Shown: positions 28,648-37,618 of the stretch, piece after piece | Position numbering within the stretch: the stretch's first letter is position 1 | How the letters are laid out: each line of letters opens with the position of its first letter | Origin: Pseudomonas viridiflava | GTDB lineage: Bacteria > Pseudomonadota > Gammaproteobacteria > Pseudomonadales > Pseudomonadaceae | Length of the DNA: 64,000 nt | Assembly (NCBI RefSeq): GCF_900580865.1 | Contig: NZ_UTBZ01000099.1 | Coordinates: forward strand, 259,302-323,301 | Reading direction: 5' to 3' | Program-made: the position numbers and the translations under genes | The notes under the pieces: model-generated | The model's database searches: none | Told to the model about the DNA's origin: nothing | Seen by the model: only the letters and a program-made list of their open reading frames with translations

Positions 28648-30699
28648 ATGTCCGAACCACGCAAGATCCTCGTCACCAGCGCCCTGCCCTACGCCAACGG
28701 TTCGATTCACCTTGGCCATATGCTGGAATATATCCAGACCGATATGTGGGTGCGCTTCCAGAAGCATCGCGGCAATCAATGCATTTATGTCTGCGCCGAC
28801 GACGCCCACGGTTCGGCGATCATGCTGCGCGCGGAAAAGGAAGGCATCACCCCGGAACAACTGATCGCCAACGTGCAGGCTGAACACAGCGCCGACTTTG
28901 CCGAGTTCCTGGTTGATTTCGACAATTTCCACTCCACTCACGCCGAAGAAAACCGTGAGCTGTCGAGCCAGATCTACATCAAGCTGCGTGACGCCGGGCA
29001 CATCGCCCAGCGCTCGATCACCCAGTATTTCGACCCGGAAAAGAAAATGTTCCTGGCCGACCGCTTCATCAAGGGCACCTGCCCGAAATGCGGCACCGAA
29101 GACCAGTACGGCGACAATTGCGAAAAGTGCGGTGCAACCTACGCACCGACCGACCTGAAGGATCCGAAGTCGGCCATCTCTGGCGCCACCCCGGTGCTCA
29201 AGGATTCCCAGCACTTCTTCTTCAAGCTGCCAGACTTCCAGCAGATGCTGCAGACCTGGACCCGCAGCGGCACCCTGCAAGACGCCGTCGCCAACAAGAT
29301 CGCCGAATGGCTCGATGCCGGCCTGCAGCAGTGGGACATCTCCCGCGATGCGCCGTACTTCGGTTTCGAGATTCCGGGCGAGCCGGGCAAGTACTTTTAC
29401 GTTTGGCTGGACGCGCCGATCGGCTACATGGCCAGCTTCAAGAACCTTTGCGACCGCACGCCGGAACTGGATTTCGACGCGTTCTGGGCCAAGGATTCCA
29501 CCGCCGAGCTGTACCACTTCATCGGCAAGGACATCGTCAATTTCCACGCGCTGTTCTGGCCAGCGATGCTCGAAGGCGCGGGCTACCGCAAGCCGACCGG
29601 CATCAATGTGCACGGCTACCTGACCGTCAACGGCCAGAAGATGTCCAAGTCGCGCGGCACCTTCATCAAGGCGCGCACCTATCTGGATCACCTGTCGCCG
29701 GAATACCTGCGCTACTACTACGCAGCCAAACTGGGCCGTGGCGTCGATGACCTCGACCTGAACCTCGAAGACTTCGTGCAGAAGGTCAACTCCGACCTGG
29801 TCGGCAAAGTGGTCAACATCGCCAGCCGTTGCGCCGGTTTCATCCAGAAAGGTAACGGCGGCCTGCTGGTCGATACCAATGCTGCGCCGGAGCTGACCGA
29901 GGCTTTCCTCGCCGCAGCGCCAAGCATTGCCGATGCCTATGAAGCTCGCGACTTCGCCCGCGCCATGCGTGAAACCATGGCCCTGGCCGACCGCGCCAAC
30001 GCGTGGATCGCCGACAAGGCGCCGTGGTCGTTGAACAAGCAGGAAGGCAAGCAGGACGAAGTCCAGGCAATCTGCGCCACCGCCATCAACCTGTTCCGCC
30101 AACTGGTGATCTTCCTCAAGCCGGTGCTGCCGTTGCTGGCCGCCGATGCCGAAGCGTTCCTCAACGTCGCCCCGCTGACCTGGAACGACCACACCACCCT
30201 GCTGGCCAACCACCAGTTGAACGAATTCAAGCCGTTGATGACCCGCATCGACCCGGTGAAAGTACAAGCCATGTCCGACGCCTCGAAAGAAGACCTGACC
30301 GCCAGCCAGACCGACACCGGTGCAACCGCCCCTGCGGGCAATGGCGAACTGGCCAAGGATCCGCTGTCGCCGGAAATCGACTTCGATGCATTCGCCGCGA
30401 TCGACCTGCGCGTCGCGCTGATCGTCAAAGCCGAACACGTGGAGGGTGCCGACAAACTGCTGCGCCTGACACTGGATATCGGTGACGAGCAGCGCAACGT
30501 GTTCTCCGGGATCAAGAGCGCTTATCCGGATCCGTCCAAACTCGACGGTCGCCTGACGATGATGATCGCCAACCTCAAGCCACGGAAAATGAAGTTCGGT
30601 ATCTCCGAAGGCATGGTGATGGCAGCGGGCCCTGGCGGTGAAGAAATCTACCTGCTGAGCCCGGACAGCGGCGCCAAGCCTGGTCAGCGTATCAAGTAA
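28648..30699 (+). CDS. metG: Methionyl-tRNA synthetase
   Basis: 683 residues from the ATG at 28648. HLGH (class I HIGH motif) is near residue 24, a zinc finger CPKCG...CEKCG lies near 145-165, KMSKS precedes SRGTF (about 332), and a C-terminal EMAP/tRNA-binding domain starts about residue 580 after a polar linker. It charges tRNA-Met in the cytoplasm. Longer open frame upstream has no ribosome site. Confidence 0.98.
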
Positions 30700-30831: not shown

Positions 30832-31401
30832 ATGACCGAACTCGTGCTTACGCTTATCAGTGCTGCGCTGCTCAACAACTTCGTGTTGCACTGGCCGCTG
30901 GGCGTCGATCCGCTGTTGGCGGGCAGTCGTCGTCAGGTACATGCGTTGGGGCTGGCGACGTTGTGCCTGATGTTGCTCGTCGGTGTCGTCGGTTACGTGA
31001 TCTGGCACTGGTTGCTGATGCCGCTTCACCTTGAAGCCCTGCGCCTGTTCGTGTTTCTGCCATTGAGTGTGTTGCTGATCGCGCCGCTGCTGAAACTGCT
31101 GACGCGCTGGCTGCCTGATCTGCCCTTCGCCGGTCTATGGCCATTGTTGCTGGGCAATGCCGGTGTGCTCGGGCTGACGCTTATCAACGCGCAAAACGAT
31201 CAAGGTCTGCTGCAGGCGACAGCGCTGAGTCTCGGTGCCGGGCTGGGTTTCTGGTTAGTACTGAGCCTGTTCCAGGATTTGCGTGAACGTACGGCCGACA
31301 ACGATATTCCCCTGCCCTTTCGCGGCTTGCCGATCGATCTGATCAGCGCCGGATTGATCGCAGTGATTTTTCTCGGATTCAGTGGACTGATCAAAACATG
31401 A
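30832..31401 (+). CDS. rnfA: Rnf/Rsx complex membrane subunit A
   Basis: 189 residues from the ATG at 30832 (an earlier in-frame Met at 30787 is less likely). Six membrane segments; starts [23 protein letters not shown], with the family's LxNNFVL pattern. RnfA is one of the paired integral subunits of the Rnf (Rsx) electron-transport complex, which moves electrons between NADH and ferredoxin or, as Rsx, keeps SoxR reduced. It overlaps rnfB by 4 bases. Compared with typical RnfA the sequence is clearly diverged (for example W instead of the usual C/Q in HWPLG), so essential residues should be checked by alignment. Confidence 0.82.
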
Positions 31402-32606
31402 GTCTGATTCAACGCATCGATGCCCTTCTGCCGCAGACCCAATGCGGCAAGTGCGGCCATCCCGGATGCAAGCCATATGCACAAGGCATCGCCGAGGGCG
31501 AGCCGATCAACAAGTGCCCGCCGGGCGGTGCCGAAACCATTGCCGCGCTGGCTGAACTATTGAAAGTGCCGGTGCTGGAACTGGACATCAGTCGCGGTTC
31601 GGCGCCGCCGCAAGTGGCGTTCATCCGTGAGGCCGAATGCATTGGTTGCACCAAGTGCATCCAGGCGTGCCCGATCGACGCGATTGTCGGCGCGGCGAAA
31701 CTGATGCACACAGTGATCATTGACGAGTGCACCGGTTGCGACCTGTGTGTTGCGCCATGCCCGGTCGATTGCATCGAAATGCATCCATTGCCCCCGAGCA
31801 CGTTGCCGGTGGTGGGCGGTCTGGCCTTCAATCTTGAAGAACAGCGCGCACGCGCGGCCAAACGCGATCACGCGCGTGAACGTTTCGAGCGCCGAAACGA
31901 GCGCTTGCAACGCGAAGAGCAACAGAAGCAGGCGGAGCGTGAAGCGCGGGCGAAACGGGCGGCGCAACCTGAAGTGAGCGCCACCGATCCGGTGCAGGCA
32001 GCGCTGGAGCGGGTGCGCGCACAGAAAGCGGCGACCGCGGATGCGGCGCTGAAGAAAGCCAAGATCGATGTGGCCATGAGCCGTGCACAATTGCACAAAT
32101 CGCTGAAGGCTTTCGGCCATCCGCCGACGTTCGAGCAGCAGGCACAATTGATCGTGTTGCAGCAGCAATTCGAAGCAGCCGAACAGGCTCTGGCAGCCGT
32201 TGAAAGCAGCGCTGTGTCATCGCCCACAGTGCCTGCCCCAGCCAAAGACGCCGATCTGAAACGGGCGAAGATCCAGCTGGCCATGCGCCGCGCCGAATTG
32301 AAAAAAGCACAAACTGCCGAAGCGGCGCCCGAGCAGATCGCCGCGCTGAAGCAAGCACTAAGCGATGCCGAGCAAGCCCTGCACACCGCCGAAGCCACCA
32401 GCGAGAAGCCGTTGCCTGAGCTGGTGCGCGTCGAAAAGCGCCCGATCGACAGCCAGCTTCGCCAGTTGAAAACCGAACTGGCCTACGCCCGCGCCGACTT
32501 CAACAAACTCGAACGTCGCGCCGACACGCCCAGTGAAACCCTCGACAAGGCCCGCGCCCGCCTGCAAGACGCCGAGCGCCAGGTGCAAGATCATGTCGCC
32601 CCTTGA
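31398..32606 (+). CDS. rnfB: Rnf/Rsx subunit B, enlarged, without the N-terminal membrane anchor
   Basis: 402 residues; typical RnfB is about 180-200. The usual N-terminal transmembrane helix is missing: the protein opens directly with the [4Fe-4S] domain (CGKCGHPGC...CPPGG). Two ferredoxin clusters follow ([12 protein letters not shown] and [12 protein letters not shown]). From about residue 150 the rest is a charged Ala/Lys/Glu-rich helix with three imperfect repeats (for example [45 protein letters not shown]), very like the C-terminal tail of RnfC ([10 protein letters not shown]...). No rnfC gene follows. Likely a fusion or a relic. Confidence 0.8.
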
Positions 32607-33576
32607 GGCACCGGACGATCGCCTGCCACAGGCGATGAAACTGGTGCTGCTGGCCACGTTGCCGGGGCTGCTGGCGCTGTTCTGGTTTTACGGTTGGGGC
32701 GTGCTGATCAATCTGCTGTCGGCTATCGTCACCGCGCTAATGGTCGAGGCAGCTGTCCTCCGACTGCGTCGACAGCCATTGCAGCCAACGTTGAGCGACG
32801 GCAGTGCCCTGGTCAGCGCGACATTGCTGGCCGCCGCTCTGCCACCTTATTGCCCGTGGTGGCTGACGGTAACGGCCATTGCTTCGGGTTTGTTGTTTGG
32901 CAAGCACGTGTACGGCGGCGTTGGTAGAAATCCGTTCAATCCGGCGATGCTCGGGTTTGCCTTGGTCGTGGTGATGTTCCCGCAACCGATGACCCATTGG
33001 CCGGCCCATGGCCTGGATCTGACGGCGAGCCTTCAACAGGTATTCGGCGTGGGTCAGACTGCGGATGCCTGGGCGCAGGCCACTGTGCTGGACAGTCTGC
33101 GCATCAACAGAAGTCTGACCATGGACGAGTTGTTCGCCAGCCATCCGGCCTTCGGTCGCTTTGGCGGGCACGGCGTCGAATGGGTGAATCTGGCGTTTCT
33201 CGCTGGCGGGCTGTTTTTGCTGCAACGCCGGGTCTTTGGCTGGCACGCACCGCTGGGCATGCTTGCCAGCCTGTTTGTCGTCAGTCTGCTGTGCTGGAAT
33301 GGCTCAGGCTCGGACTCGCAGGGTTCACCGCTGTTTCATCTGCTTAGCGGTGCGACCATGCTGGGCGCGTTTTTCATCATTACCGAACCGGTTTCCGGCG
33401 CTAAAAGCGCACTTGCCCGCCTGCTGTTCGGCGTAGGTGTCGGGCTGCTGACCTATTTGATTCGCACTTGGGGTGGATATCCGGATGGCGTGGCGTTTGC
33501 GGTGCTGCTGATGAATCTTTGTGTGCCGGCGCTGGAGCGATTTGCCGCCGGCCGTCAGGTTGAGGTGAGGCCATGA
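32593..33576 (+). CDS. rnfD: Rnf/Rsx membrane subunit D (covalent flavin)
   Basis: 327 residues from the ATG at 32593, overlapping the rnfB end by 14 bases. Up to ten membrane segments. Family landmarks: [19 protein letters not shown] and the SGAT site ([12 protein letters not shown]), where FMN is linked to the Thr. In normal operons rnfC sits between B and D, and it is absent here. Confidence 0.88.
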
Positions 33577-34178
33577 ATCGTACGGCCAGCGTGCTTGTTG
33601 TGCTGCTGTTGGCGGTCATCAGCATCGGCGTGACGTACTTCGTACAGCGTATTAACGCACCGCAAATTGTCGCGCAGCAGCGCTTGATCGAAAGCCGCAA
33701 ACTGCTTGATCTGCTGCCACTCGAAACCTACGACAACCAACCGCTGGAACAGCCTCTGGCTTTGCCAGACAGCACCTTGAGTCACAGCAACTTGTCGGGC
33801 GGCTATCGCGCGACCCGAGGCGGCCAGACCGTAGCGATATTGCTGCGCAGTCAGACCCAGGGTTATGCGGGGGCCATCGAACTGCTGATCGCCATCGATG
33901 CCACCGGCAAATTACTGGCTGTGAAAACCCTCAAACAGAGCGAAACCCCGGCCCTAGGCGGGCATCTGGGTGACTGGCCGAATGCCTGGCTGCAAACGTT
34001 TACCGGCAAATCGGCCAATGGGCCAACCGATGCAGGCTGGGCGCTGAAAAAGGATCAGGGACAATTTGATCAAATAGCCGGTGCAACCATCACCTCGCGC
34101 GCGGCGATCAGCGCGATTCATGATGCCTTGCGCTACTTCGATGAACATCGGGCGGCATTGCTGGGGAGCGGAACATGA
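33573..34178 (+). CDS. rnfG: Rnf/Rsx subunit G (flavoprotein)
   Basis: 201 residues, ATGA overlap with rnfD. A single N-terminal membrane segment (about 5-24) is followed by a periplasmic FMN-binding domain with IAGATITSRA, the S/A-GAT-x-T flavin attachment motif. It receives electrons inside the complex. Confidence 0.87.
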   Translation: MNRTASVLVVLLLAVISIGVTYFVQRINAPQIVAQQRLIESRKLLDLLPLETYDNQPLEQPLALPDSTLSHSNLSGGYRATRGGQTVAILLRSQTQGYAGAIELLIAIDATGKLLAVKTLKQSETPALGGHLGDWPNAWLQTFTGKSANGPTDAGWALKKDQGQFDQIAGATITSRAAISAIHDALRYFDEHRAALLGSGT

Positions 34179-34756
34179 ACCGGTCGGCAGCCCTCTCGAA
34201 CACTTTGATGCTGACATTGCTGCTTGGCACCAGTGACTCCTTGGCCGGGGCACTGGTGGCATTATTGATGTTCGCCAGTGTCGTGGGTCTGTATGGCCTG
34301 TGCATGCCGGTTTTACGGTCTCGCCTCACTGGCACCAGCGCATTGCTGGCCAGCCTGCTGCTCGCCGCGACCTTCAGCAGTTGTGCAAACCTGTTGGCGC
34401 AACGCTGGTTTCTGCCCTGGCAGCAAACATTCGGCCTCTATGTCGGCCTGATCGCCTTGCAATGCGTGGTACTGGAACACAATGGCTTCTGGCGCCAATC
34501 GCGGGTTGAGCACTTGAAACGCTGCAGCATGTTCGGCGGATTGATGTTGCTGCTCGCCGGTCTGCGTGAACTCAGTGGTTACGGCAGTCTCGGTCGGGGG
34601 CTGTCCGAATACTGGCCAGGTCTTGTTGTATTTAGCGAAGGGCTGCACCTGATCACCTTGATCCCCGGTGCTTTTATTTTGTTGGCGCTGCTGCTGGCGG
34701 CGCGTCGGGCGTTGACTCGCCCGCACTCGATATCCAAGGAAACGCATCGCCCATGA
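34175..34756 (+). CDS. rnfE: Rnf/Rsx membrane subunit E
   Basis: 193 residues with six predicted membrane segments, homologous partner of RnfA (antiparallel pair). The order D-G-E is the normal one. Compared with RnfE of other bacteria the sequence is diverged (SCANLLAQRWFLPW, GLIALQCVVLEH). ATGA overlap with rnfG; next gene nth overlaps by 4 bases. Confidence 0.82.
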   Translation: MNRSAALSNTLMLTLLLGTSDSLAGALVALLMFASVVGLYGLCMPVLRSRLTGTSALLASLLLAATFSSCANLLAQRWFLPWQQTFGLYVGLIALQCVVLEHNGFWRQSRVEHLKRCSMFGGLMLLLAGLRELSGYGSLGRGLSEYWPGLVVFSEGLHLITLIPGAFILLALLLAARRALTRPHSISKETHRP

Positions 34757-35391
34757 ATGCTGCAAAACGTCTGGAGATTTTCCGCCGCCTGCACGAAGAC
34801 AATCCGGAGCCGAAGACTGAACTGGCCTACTCCTCGCCTTTCGAACTGCTGATCGCCGTGATTCTGTCAGCACAGTCGACTGACGTCGGCGTCAACAAGG
34901 CCACGGCGAAGTTGTTTCCGGTCGCCAATACGCCGGCTGCCATCCACGCTTTGGGTGTCGAAGGTCTATCCGAATACATCAAGACAATCGGCCTCTACAA
35001 CAGCAAGGCCAAGAACGTCATTGAGACCTGCCGCCTGCTGGTCGAGCGCCATGGCAGCGATGTCCCGCAAACCCGTGAGGAACTCGAAGCCTTGCCGGGA
35101 GTGGGCCGCAAGACCGCCAACGTCGTACTCAACACGGCTTTCCGCCAACTGACCATGGCGGTCGACACTCATATCTTCCGGGTCAGCAATCGCACCGGCA
35201 TTGCACCGGGCAAAAATGTGGTTGAAGTGGAAAAGAAGCTGATGAAGTTCGTACCCAAAGATTTCCTGCTCGACTCCCACCACTGGCTGATTCTTCACGG
35301 CCGTTACGTGTGTCTGGCCCGCAAGCCACGCTGCGGCAGTTGCCGCATCGAGGATTTGTGCGAGTACAAGGACAAAACTTCTGACGATTGA
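34753..35391 (+). CDS. nth: Endonuclease III
   Basis: 212 residues. The helix-hairpin-helix LPGVGRKTANVVLNTAF holds the catalytic Lys (GRKTAN) and VDTHIFRVSNR the Asp. The [4Fe-4S] cluster motif CLARKPRCGSCRIEDLC closes the protein. It excises oxidised pyrimidines in base-excision repair. Last large gene of the rnf operon, as in most gamma-proteobacteria. Confidence 0.97.
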   Translation: MNAAKRLEIFRRLHEDNPEPKTELAYSSPFELLIAVILSAQSTDVGVNKATAKLFPVANTPAAIHALGVEGLSEYIKTIGLYNSKAKNVIETCRLLVERHGSDVPQTREELEALPGVGRKTANVVLNTAFRQLTMAVDTHIFRVSNRTGIAPGKNVVEVEKKLMKFVPKDFLLDSHHWLILHGRYVCLARKPRCGSCRIEDLCEYKDKTSDD

Positions 35392-36394: not shown

Positions 36395-36901
36395 GGGCAA
36401 GTCCAGTTTCGCTGTTCGAATTTTTAGAACACGCACAATAGCCCAGTCACTTGCTCTATGGCATGCCGGGGTTATCATGCACTTGCATCGAGAGACGTCC
36501 CCTACAGGCATTGCGGATTAATCCTACAAAAAACCGCTTCCGCCCTAAAAATCTGACGTTATTCCCTCCTCCATCCAAGGCAATAGTTCTCCTCCAACTT
36601 GTTACAGACTACGACTAACGACACCGAGCTTGTGACTCGCCGCTGACCTGCAACGGGTTAATCGGCCTTGACACTGTTGAGGCTGCGTGCGGCAGACGAT
36701 ATTTACTAAAAACTGGAAACATAACGCAATAGCAAACACACGTTCTCGACAACAGCGAGCAGAATATAAACACTTGAAACAAGATATTTATACCTGACGC
36801 AATGCTTTTGCTATAAATATAATACCTGAAACGCAACTACCAATACTTCACCCCACACAAACTTATCAACTATGAGAAAGACCAGACAAAAGAGGACAAA
36901 C
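36395..36901. other. AT-rich intergenic stretch
   Basis: 507 bases with visibly lower GC than the surroundings, especially 36520-36900. It should contain the divergent promoters of the regulator and the two-TM gene. I see no convincing gene or RNA. Confidence 0.5.
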
Positions 36902-37618
36902 ATGCTGAAAATAAAAAACAAGATCACTAACCCAATGACAGTAATTGCCATATTTGCAGCCATCTCGGAAACATCAGCCGCGATTTCCCTGCCATTTCTC
37001 GACAACAAGGACAGGGAGATTTACGTGTGGTTTCTGATCAGCTTTCCATTCTATTTGCTATTTCTGTTTTTTATTACTTTAAACTTTAACTATCGCTCCC
37101 TCTACTCGCCATCTGACTTCGGTAAAGACAAGAACTTTCTAAAAGTAATCGACAACAATGATCGCGAGAACAAACGAAATACTTCGACTCAGGAGTCATC
37201 CGCGCAAGGTACATTTGGACTATCAAGTTGTATCGTGCCCAACGAGTCAGCCACGGTGGAATGCAAAGACTCGTGCACAGTGCACACCGCGCCCGACCCA
37301 CCTGCGGGCACCAACACCAGGTCGAGCCTGATTGTTCAGCACAACATCCAGTTGCCGGCGTGGATCAACAACCTGCACCTCATTGATGCGCGAGATGTCG
37401 ACGCGTCGAAAGAATTAGCCACGATTCTGGAAAACATCCGAAACCTCGACAGGAAAACTGTTCGTGTGGTGGTGTTTCTTTCCAATCACGTCTCGGACGT
37501 TTTGCTGACGAAAAATGCGCTGCAGCACATCAAGCAGGTTAAAAAAGGCTCAGGCAGAACGCTTTGTATTGTTTACAACCTGTGCTCACAAGCGGTGACT
37601 CTGCTGGGACGGGCATGA
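36902..37618 (+). CDS. Two-TM membrane protein with C-terminal alpha/beta domain, unknown
   Basis: 238 residues from the ATG at 36902 with AGAGGA upstream. Two membrane segments (about 13-35 MTVIAIFAAISETSAAIS and 43-65 YVWFLISFPFYLLFLFFITL) and the conserved-looking NFNYRSLYSPSDF after them. I recall similar 2TM-LYxPSDF modules in many uncharacterised bacterial proteins. A low-complexity linker (70-145, with Cys residues) leads to a C-terminal domain (about 150-238; LHLIDARDVDASKELATIL, VRVVVFLSNHVSDVLL) of mixed alpha/beta character, loosely STAS-like. Lower GC than neighbours in its first half suggests acquisition. Function unknown. Confidence 0.65.
   Translation: MLKIKNKITNPMTVIAIFAAISETSAAISLPFLDNKDREIYVWFLISFPFYLLFLFFITLNFNYRSLYSPSDFGKDKNFLKVIDNNDRENKRNTSTQESSAQGTFGLSSCIVPNESATVECKDSCTVHTAPDPPAGTNTRSSLIVQHNIQLPAWINNLHLIDARDVDASKELATILENIRNLDRKTVRVVVFLSNHVSDVLLTKNALQHIKQVKKGSGRTLCIVYNLCSQAVTLLGRA

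Follow-up and report, generated by a model that had tools for sequence, protein, structure and literature searches.

The 64,000-nt stretch of Pseudomonas DNA analyzed here (hereafter the window) carries a set of Rnf electron-transfer genes in the order metG-rnfA-rnfB-rnfD-rnfG-rnfE-nth, with no rnfC in between. By synteny, this site between metG and nth is the one occupied by rnfABCDGE in other genomes, and sequence comparison indicates that an ordinary metG-rnfABCDGE-nth locus has lost rnfC, the membrane anchor of RnfB and three of the four cysteines that ligate the [2Fe-2S] cluster of RnfA/RnfE, and that RseC has disappeared in nearly all cases. Judged from its sequence, RnfB has become a soluble [4Fe-4S] protein that carries the tail of RnfC and is able to occur alone beside nth. 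The Rnf without RnfC is a real, conserved state; it is genus-wide, being found in more than half of the sampled Pseudomonas, and not peculiar to this strain. Its conserved flavin-carrying parts, which are under strong selection, suggest a different electron device and not decay.

Absence of rnfC and distribution across Pseudomonas

In the 6.77-Mb genome of the window, which is 100% complete, a profile search found no rnfC over the cut-off, neither at the locus nor elsewhere. The TIGR01945 (rnfC) matches, at 57 and 26 bits, correspond to the complex I subunits NuoF and NuoI, and the RnfC_N match in the genome is a biotin-dependent carboxylase subunit. The preliminary description of this DNA had already reported rnfC as missing and had named two outcomes at odds with its proposal, namely a full-length rnfC elsewhere in the genome or an RnfB tail unrelated to RnfC and equally present in species that keep rnfC; neither was found.

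Among 249 Pseudomonas genomes (one draw), rnfC exceeded the cut-off in 36, of which 30 scored more than 600 bits and were classed as canonical; 24 of these 30 were retrieved, and rnfA, B, C, D, G and E were present in all 24. The rnfD model exceeded its cut-off in 175 genomes, and rnfB had a match with E no higher than 1e-40 in 216. By gene content, the sample consists of 30 canonical genomes, six with another rnfC over the cut-off, 121 without rnfC but with both rnfB and rnfD, 18 with rnfD only, 62 with rnfB without rnfD, and 12 with none of these genes. The same arrangement in related species, which the preliminary description had proposed to look for, is represented by 121 of the 249 genomes.

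The 97 syntenic metG-nth loci that we classified were chosen from listed matches, not at random, and three second clusters were set aside. They comprise 57 rnfA-B-D-G-E loci with a tailed RnfB (window included), 13 rnfA-D-G-E loci, 23 with tailed rnfB only (23/93 of the tailed or rnfC-less loci) and four canonical ones. The 57 and 13 loci together form the set of 70 rnfC-less loci used below, and the 57 and 23 loci the set of 80 tailed loci. Five of the 70 (L064, L065, L069, L070 and L071) belong to genomes that have another, different rnfC elsewhere. The best 80 named relatives in GTDB were all Pseudomonas: 49 have rnfA-B-D-G-E, 30 rnfB only and one rnfA and rnfB only. Among these 80, the closest named RnfB is that of P. 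neuropathica (rnfA-B-D-G-E), the same gene set occurs in P. chlororaphis, P. protegens, P. fluorescens and P. cichorii, and rnfB alone is found, for example, in P. antarctica, P. lundensis and P. congelans.

Two further arrangements were observed. P. sivasensis (L292) has metG-rnfA-rnfB-nth only, which looks like a half-way stage in the loss of the membrane part, and in some Pseudomonas genomes there is an additional, different rnf-like cluster that includes an rnfC (L072, L091 and L092).

A lost anchor and an RnfC-type tail in RnfB

As the preliminary description had proposed for this RnfB of 402 residues, the N-terminal membrane helix is lacking: the 19-residue Kyte-Doolittle maximum is 1.04 vs 3.12 in one canonical RnfB, and similarity to canonical RnfB begins at residue 5. 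The core matches TIGR01944 with 215 bits over residues 2-132, and all 13 core cysteines are kept in 80/80 tailed loci. After the last of them, canonical RnfB continues for 30-38 residues in 24 Pseudomonas loci and for 22-47 residues in 21 loci of other families, compared with 135-283 residues in the 80 tailed loci.

The additional segment corresponds to the tail of Pseudomonas RnfC. It matched 23/23 RnfC tail records (from 19 Pseudomonas genomes with a complete complex, four of them represented twice), the best with 152 bits and 52% identity over 188 residues, reaching the C-terminus, and the two tails are colinear down to their final residues. Moreover, residues 81-373 align in one stretch with the ferredoxin domain and tail of RnfC (32%, E 1.8e-14). 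A composition artefact was ruled out by controls, in which the best scores were 18.9 bits for reversed tails and 23.9 bits for 460 shuffled ones. A tail motif occurs in 79/80 tailed RnfB and in none of 45 canonical RnfB (24 from Pseudomonas, 21 from other loci), at a median distance from the cluster cysteines of 41 residues in RnfB (79/80) and 33 in RnfC (23/23 records); the pattern used is a looser one, since a first, stricter pattern matched 0/23 RnfC records. The tail had no PDB match by sequence. An AlphaFold model, which has a poor core (predicted local distance difference test score below 50 at residues 66-129) and served for the tail alone, places helices at residues 146-188, 198-238/245-272, 282-306/311-334 and 352-373/379-400, and the three predicted hairpins after one long helix agree with the three repeats described before.

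Deletion of rnfC with transfer of its tail onto RnfB, as had been suggested from the window, is the simplest reading of this arrangement and draws support from the colinear tail, the tailless canonical RnfB and the shared metG-nth locus. The function of the long RnfC tail has been described as not yet understood, and in Azotobacter vinelandii the tail is reported to contact RnfB (PMC12174285).

Tailed RnfB outside Pseudomonas

Solo RnfB proteins with a tail were also found in 14 loci spread over 12 further families of Gammaproteobacteria, taken from the best-scoring solo-looking matches of 274 genomes and not at random. Their tails measure 70-209 residues, and the similarity to RnfC tails is weak. 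In blastp comparisons with RnfC tails, 13/14 matched at E 2e-9 to 5e-3 (one over only 16 residues) and one at 0.22, where the best reversed control gave E 0.044; a profile of RnfC tail starts recovered 12/14 at E of at most 0.011 (L196 and L198 were not recovered). Within the 15 kb examined, nth was present in 11/14 loci and metG in 8/14, and none of the 14 had rnfA, rnfD, rnfG or rnfE. One of these proteins (L187) keeps an N-terminal hydrophobic stretch, as judged by eye. ApbE was found in 6/15 solo genomes and 19/19 canonical ones. Thus, an RnfB core with an RnfC-like tail in the vicinity of metG and nth seems to have arisen either repeatedly or long ago. The tail is the one part of RnfC retained on RnfB, and with tails of some similarity in 13/14 solo loci from 12 families it may matter to RnfB itself.

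In a tree of RnfB cores (69 rows, including 16/57 rnfA-B-D-G-E and 10/23 rnfB-only Pseudomonas loci), the tailed RnfB of Pseudomonas grouped with canonical RnfB of the same genus (support 94/92, not starred). Topology tests rejected neither a single clade of all tailed RnfB (approximately unbiased test, p-AU 0.208) nor one of the other solo forms (0.315). Because of the Pseudomonas-type repeats in the tail, we favour a separate fusion event in Pseudomonas.

Loss of [2Fe-2S] ligands and of RseC

The four cysteines that ligate the [2Fe-2S] cluster of RnfA and RnfE are all present in 24/24 canonical loci. In the 70 rnfC-less loci, window included, both RnfA cysteines and the first RnfE cysteine are each found in 0/70, and the second RnfE cysteine in 70/70. 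The alignment column of the first RnfE cysteine is perhaps a few residues out of register; the 17 cysteines in this region fall at aligned window residues 7-10, 27, 30, 32 or 40 and none at 11-26, so no rnfC-less row keeps this ligand in either register.

The surviving ligand, RnfE Cys97 (window 34463-34465), is invariant despite the loss of the other three ligands and the high variability of the rest of RnfE. Over the 70 loci only G18, Cys97 and R131 of RnfE are invariant, which is accounted for by none of the explanations proposed here.

RseC/MucC was detected in 30/30 canonical Pseudomonas genomes vs 1/219 others, the exception being G123 (rnfC-less locus L068); it is absent from the genome of the window. 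Outside Pseudomonas, it occurs in 19/19 genomes with canonical rnf (15 families) and in 0/15 with solo tailed RnfB (12 families), giving 49/49 genomes with a canonical complex vs 1/234 others. The corresponding numbers for rnfC outside Pseudomonas are 19/19 and 1/15. For the equivalent cluster of NQR, a maturation protein, NqrM, has been reported (PMC12174285), and by analogy RseC could be the maturation factor of the Rnf cluster. Several points speak against such a role: RseC co-varies with RnfC too, so that the two are not separable, and the six genomes with another type of rnfC are without RseC, including one (G022) in which the second cluster L072 has all four ligands. The pattern points to a role, open to experiment, of a protein that has otherwise been put forward as a regulator (PMC9124969) or seen as part of the Escherichia coli SoxR reducer, which has been described as Rsx with RseC and ApbE (PMC11729352). 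The preliminary description, right about the loss of rnfC and the tail of RnfB, had overlooked the lost ligands, the missing RseC and the relaxed constraint on RnfA and RnfE reported below.

The E. coli precedent raises the question of whether the complex has retained the usual Rsx function of keeping SoxR reduced, with the tailed RnfB as reductase. The genome of the window does encode SoxR but lacks RseC, which belongs to the E. coli reducer. Furthermore, SoxR was found in 7/30 canonical genomes, 4/6 with another rnfC, 100/121 with rnfB and rnfD but no rnfC, 16/18 with rnfD only, 41/62 with rnfB only and 8/12 with neither. SoxR does not co-occur with rnf, and we set its reduction aside as the retained function, considering it very improbable.

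Constraint on the flavin subunits and co-occurrence of ApbE

The flavin attachment sites of RnfD and RnfG, whose motifs (SGAT and GAT) had been noted as intact in the window, are kept throughout the 70 rnfC-less loci. The RnfD flavin residue is Thr in 54 and Ser in 16; in the RnfG motif, Asp is present in 70/70, followed by Thr in 68 and Ser in two. In RnfD, 121 columns show at least 97% identity. Ratios of non-synonymous to synonymous substitution rates (dN/dS) were computed by NG86, with rnfC-less pairs picked by an RnfD dS of 0.15-0.9 and rnfB-only pairs by RnfB dS. Over 340 rnfC-less pairs, the median dN/dS was 0.205 for RnfA, 0.099 for RnfB (core 0.048, tail 0.114), 0.143 for RnfD, 0.167 for RnfG and 0.263 for RnfE. 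The 49 pairs without rnfB gave 0.274, 0.151, 0.172 and 0.272 for RnfA, RnfD, RnfG and RnfE, and the 34 rnfB-only pairs 0.057 for the core and 0.174 for the tail. The medians of 243 canonical pairs were 0.046 (RnfA), 0.077 (RnfB, 242 pairs), 0.158 (RnfD), 0.224 (RnfG) and 0.145 (RnfE). Compared with the canonical complex, RnfD and RnfG are therefore as constrained as before, whereas the cluster subunits RnfA and RnfE are relaxed. The dN/dS check of rnfA-E proposed earlier thus bears out constraint for RnfB, RnfD and RnfG, but not for RnfA and RnfE at the former level.

ApbE is present in the genome of the window and in 139/139 rnfC-less genomes with rnfD over the cut-off, vs 18/74 without (Fisher 6e-36, uncorrected for kinship). 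Four genomes with a sub-cut-off rnfD match, perhaps NqrB, were counted here as lacking rnfD; otherwise the numbers are 143/143 vs 14/70. On a metG+nth tree of the 97 loci, five independent pairs differ in rnfD, and ApbE follows in 4.7 of them on average, with none in the opposite direction.

These data bear on the possibility that the locus is a decaying remnant, a non-functional complex lost piecemeal after the deletion of rnfC. Such decay is what the repeated loss of rnfA, D, G and E with rnfB kept, the P. sivasensis locus, the relaxed RnfA and RnfE and the mere 39 bits of RnfE could reflect. It is difficult to reconcile with the low dN/dS of RnfD, RnfG and the RnfB core, the conserved RnfD columns, the flavin sites in 70/70 loci, the RnfB cysteines in 80/80 and the retention of ApbE wherever rnfD is. 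We regard decay as improbable; of the alternatives left side by side in the preliminary description, degeneration is unlikely for RnfD, RnfG and RnfB.

A possible electron path without RnfC

In the ordinary complex, electrons are described as passing from RnfB to NAD+ by way of the [2Fe-2S] cluster of RnfA/E, the flavin mononucleotide (FMN) of RnfG, the FMN and riboflavin of RnfD, and the [4Fe-4S] clusters and FMN of RnfC (PMC11889175, PMC12174285). It follows from this path and the losses above that NAD(H) can no longer be used via RnfC and that no electrons from RnfB can run through the ion-coupling RnfA/E cluster. RnfB is thereby cut off from its usual route to RnfG, and RnfD is left without an NAD+ end. 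Ferredoxin:NAD+ oxidoreductase activity coupled to ion transport is predicted to be absent, and the annotation "Rnf/Rsx complex" in many Pseudomonas should not imply an NADH:ferredoxin pump.

The reading we put first, tentatively and with somewhat less than even confidence, is a repurposed, short-circuited Rnf that has lost its NADH module and ion-coupling cluster and has kept its flavin wire, with the tailed RnfB feeding RnfD. The tailed RnfB, a ferredoxin domain followed by the tail, would mimic the C-terminal half of RnfC, and the tail might guide it to the place of RnfC under RnfD. RnfB would receive electrons from a cytosolic donor (ferredoxin, flavodoxin or another reductase) and could pass them straight to the riboflavin/FMN of RnfD, from where they would move on to the periplasmic FMN of RnfG. 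The result would be a straight transmembrane wire without ion pumping, in which RnfA and RnfE persist as scaffold. A solo RnfB would instead be a soluble Fe-S carrier, and at loci lacking RnfB the electrons for RnfD would come from another donor. Docking at the RnfC site would account for the joint loss of RnfC, the cluster and RseC and for the retention of RnfD, RnfG and ApbE. A pump variant that persists in much of Pseudomonas with neither NADH subunit nor coupling cluster would separate the flavin-wire role from the pump role, in genetically tractable laboratory species. An extension of this idea, which we consider unlikely, is that the tail fusion re-plugged RnfB from RnfA/E to RnfD and in one stroke removed the need for RnfC, for the [2Fe-2S] cluster and for the maturation of that cluster, turning a U-shaped pump into a straight flavin wire, with RseC as the cluster maturation factor.

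A number of observations weigh against the short-circuited wire. The rnfA-D-G-E loci without rnfB (13 examined; 18 genomes) retain low dN/dS in RnfD and RnfG, so RnfD does not always need the tailed RnfB. Conversely, rnfB occurs without rnfD in 62/249 genomes, and tailed RnfB in 12 other families is without rnfA, D, G or E within 15 kb, which points to a use independent of RnfD; the tail need not exist for docking on RnfD. Some of the supporting numbers are limited as well: the flavin Thr of RnfD is replaced by Ser in 16/70 loci, the NG86 estimates involve a median dS of up to 1.13, and the sign test for ApbE has a median p of 0.0625, as five pairs cannot reach 0.05. Canonical and rnfC-less Pseudomonas were perhaps split by one event, in which case the losses of the ligands and of RseC are not independent counts within the genus.

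Since RnfB and the membrane part each occur alone, RnfB need not serve the complex, and the wire mechanism leaves loci with just one of the halves unexplained. A close rival is therefore a split model of two uncoupled leftovers, in which RnfA, RnfD, RnfG and RnfE form a flavin conduit with its own cytosolic partner, the tailed RnfB is a free soluble Fe-S protein, and only the operon is shared. The RnfC tail would then be an arm for docking or oligomerization with a different partner, perhaps a reductase or, like Nth, a DNA-repair/Fe-S client. Besides the 62 genomes with rnfB without rnfD and the 18 with rnfD but neither rnfB nor rnfC, the metG+nth tree fits this model, as rnfD presence changes six times and rnfB presence twice; so do the tailed solo RnfB, with nth near 11/14 and membrane genes near none. 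However, rnfB is found in 121/139 rnfC-less genomes with rnfD and keeps its place in the gene order in the 57 loci of this kind that were examined, the tail it kept is the RnfC part reported to contact RnfB, and the link to nth may merely echo the ancestral metG-rnf-nth order. We treat the split model, for both the conduit and the arm, as a serious though doubtful possibility.

Comparison with known systems

With Rnf/Rsx (RnfABCDGE), the window shares five orthologous genes, the metG-nth locus, the flavin sites of RnfD and RnfG, and ApbE; it differs in lacking RnfC, a membrane-anchored RnfB, the four-Cys [2Fe-2S] site and, anywhere in its genome, RseC. The best-scoring model for the tailed RnfB is the solo RsxB NF005415 (PRK06991, 284 residues), with 250.5 bits over residues 2-262, i.e., into the tail. 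The curated cut-off, 281, is not reached, the RnfC-type repeats are longer in the Pseudomonas tail, and rnfA, D, G and E are kept in 57/80 tailed loci. With solo RsxB defined, in our working sense and not by NCBI, as having no rnfA, C, D, G or E beside it, the window, which has rnfA, D, G and E, lies outside this class.

NQR (NqrABCDEF) offers a parallel, since its proposed ancestor is an Rnf in which one electron-input subunit (RnfB) was lost and another recruited, with NqrB and NqrC as homologs of RnfD and RnfG (PMC4014512). Yet NQR is reported to keep the membrane [2Fe-2S] cluster (PMC12174285), of which three ligands are gone here, and it has NqrF, to which no gene of the operon corresponds by family models. 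NQR/RNF-like flavinylation clusters likewise have a membrane NqrB/RnfD protein and one-way electron transfer to an extracytosolic FMN domain; there, NqrB/RnfD is fused to an NqrF-type NAD domain (PMC8238504), whereas RnfD of the window matches PF03116 as its sole domain, without a C-terminal NAD domain PF00175. Among the open-licence papers listed by literature searches, none described, in its title or the opening of its abstract, an RnfC-less Pseudomonas Rnf or a fusion of RnfB with the RnfC tail, which is no proof of absence.

Gene coordinates and neighboring features

All five rnf genes and nth were named by family models (Table 1). The gene order, the coordinates and the 14-base overlap of rnfB and rnfD are as described before; the remaining junctions from rnfA through nth are 4-base overlaps. 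RnfD and RnfG lie above the cut-offs of their models. RnfA is far below (TIGR01943, 117 bits vs 229; another family-model figure is 128.7 vs 240), as is RnfE with its cut-off of 213.4 bits. The top-ranked fold matches of the predicted RnfE structure are RnfE/NqrD chains (template modelling score about 0.55), at E above 0.1 and none below 0.001.

Table 1. Genes of the metG-nth locus and the RnfB tail in window coordinates
Feature	Position	Strand	Characteristics
metG	28648..30699	+	constant upstream neighbor, by synteny
rnfA, 189 aa	30832..31401	+	both [2Fe-2S] Cys ligands replaced (Asp, Ala)
rnfB (tailed), 402 aa	31398..32606	+	RnfB core without anchor, having the Cys residues for three [4Fe-4S] clusters, fused to an RnfC-type helical tail
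RnfC-derived tail of RnfB, residues 134-402	31797..32603	+	long helix and three helical hairpins (predicted)
rnfD, 327 aa	32593..33576	+	covalent-FMN motif SGAT kept; TIGR01946 361 bits
rnfG, 201 aa	33573..34178	+	covalent-FMN motif DxxxGAT kept; TIGR01947 144 bits
rnfE, 193 aa	34175..34756	+	first Cys ligand lost, second (Cys97) kept; TIGR01948 39 bits
nth (endonuclease III)	34753..35391	+	constant downstream neighbor; 4-base overlap with rnfE; TIGR01083 283 bits

Additionally, an open reading frame of 248 codons at 36872-37618 (+), between an EvgA-like response regulator and argG, had no NCBIfam match and sits in a GC-poor stretch (46% vs about 60%).

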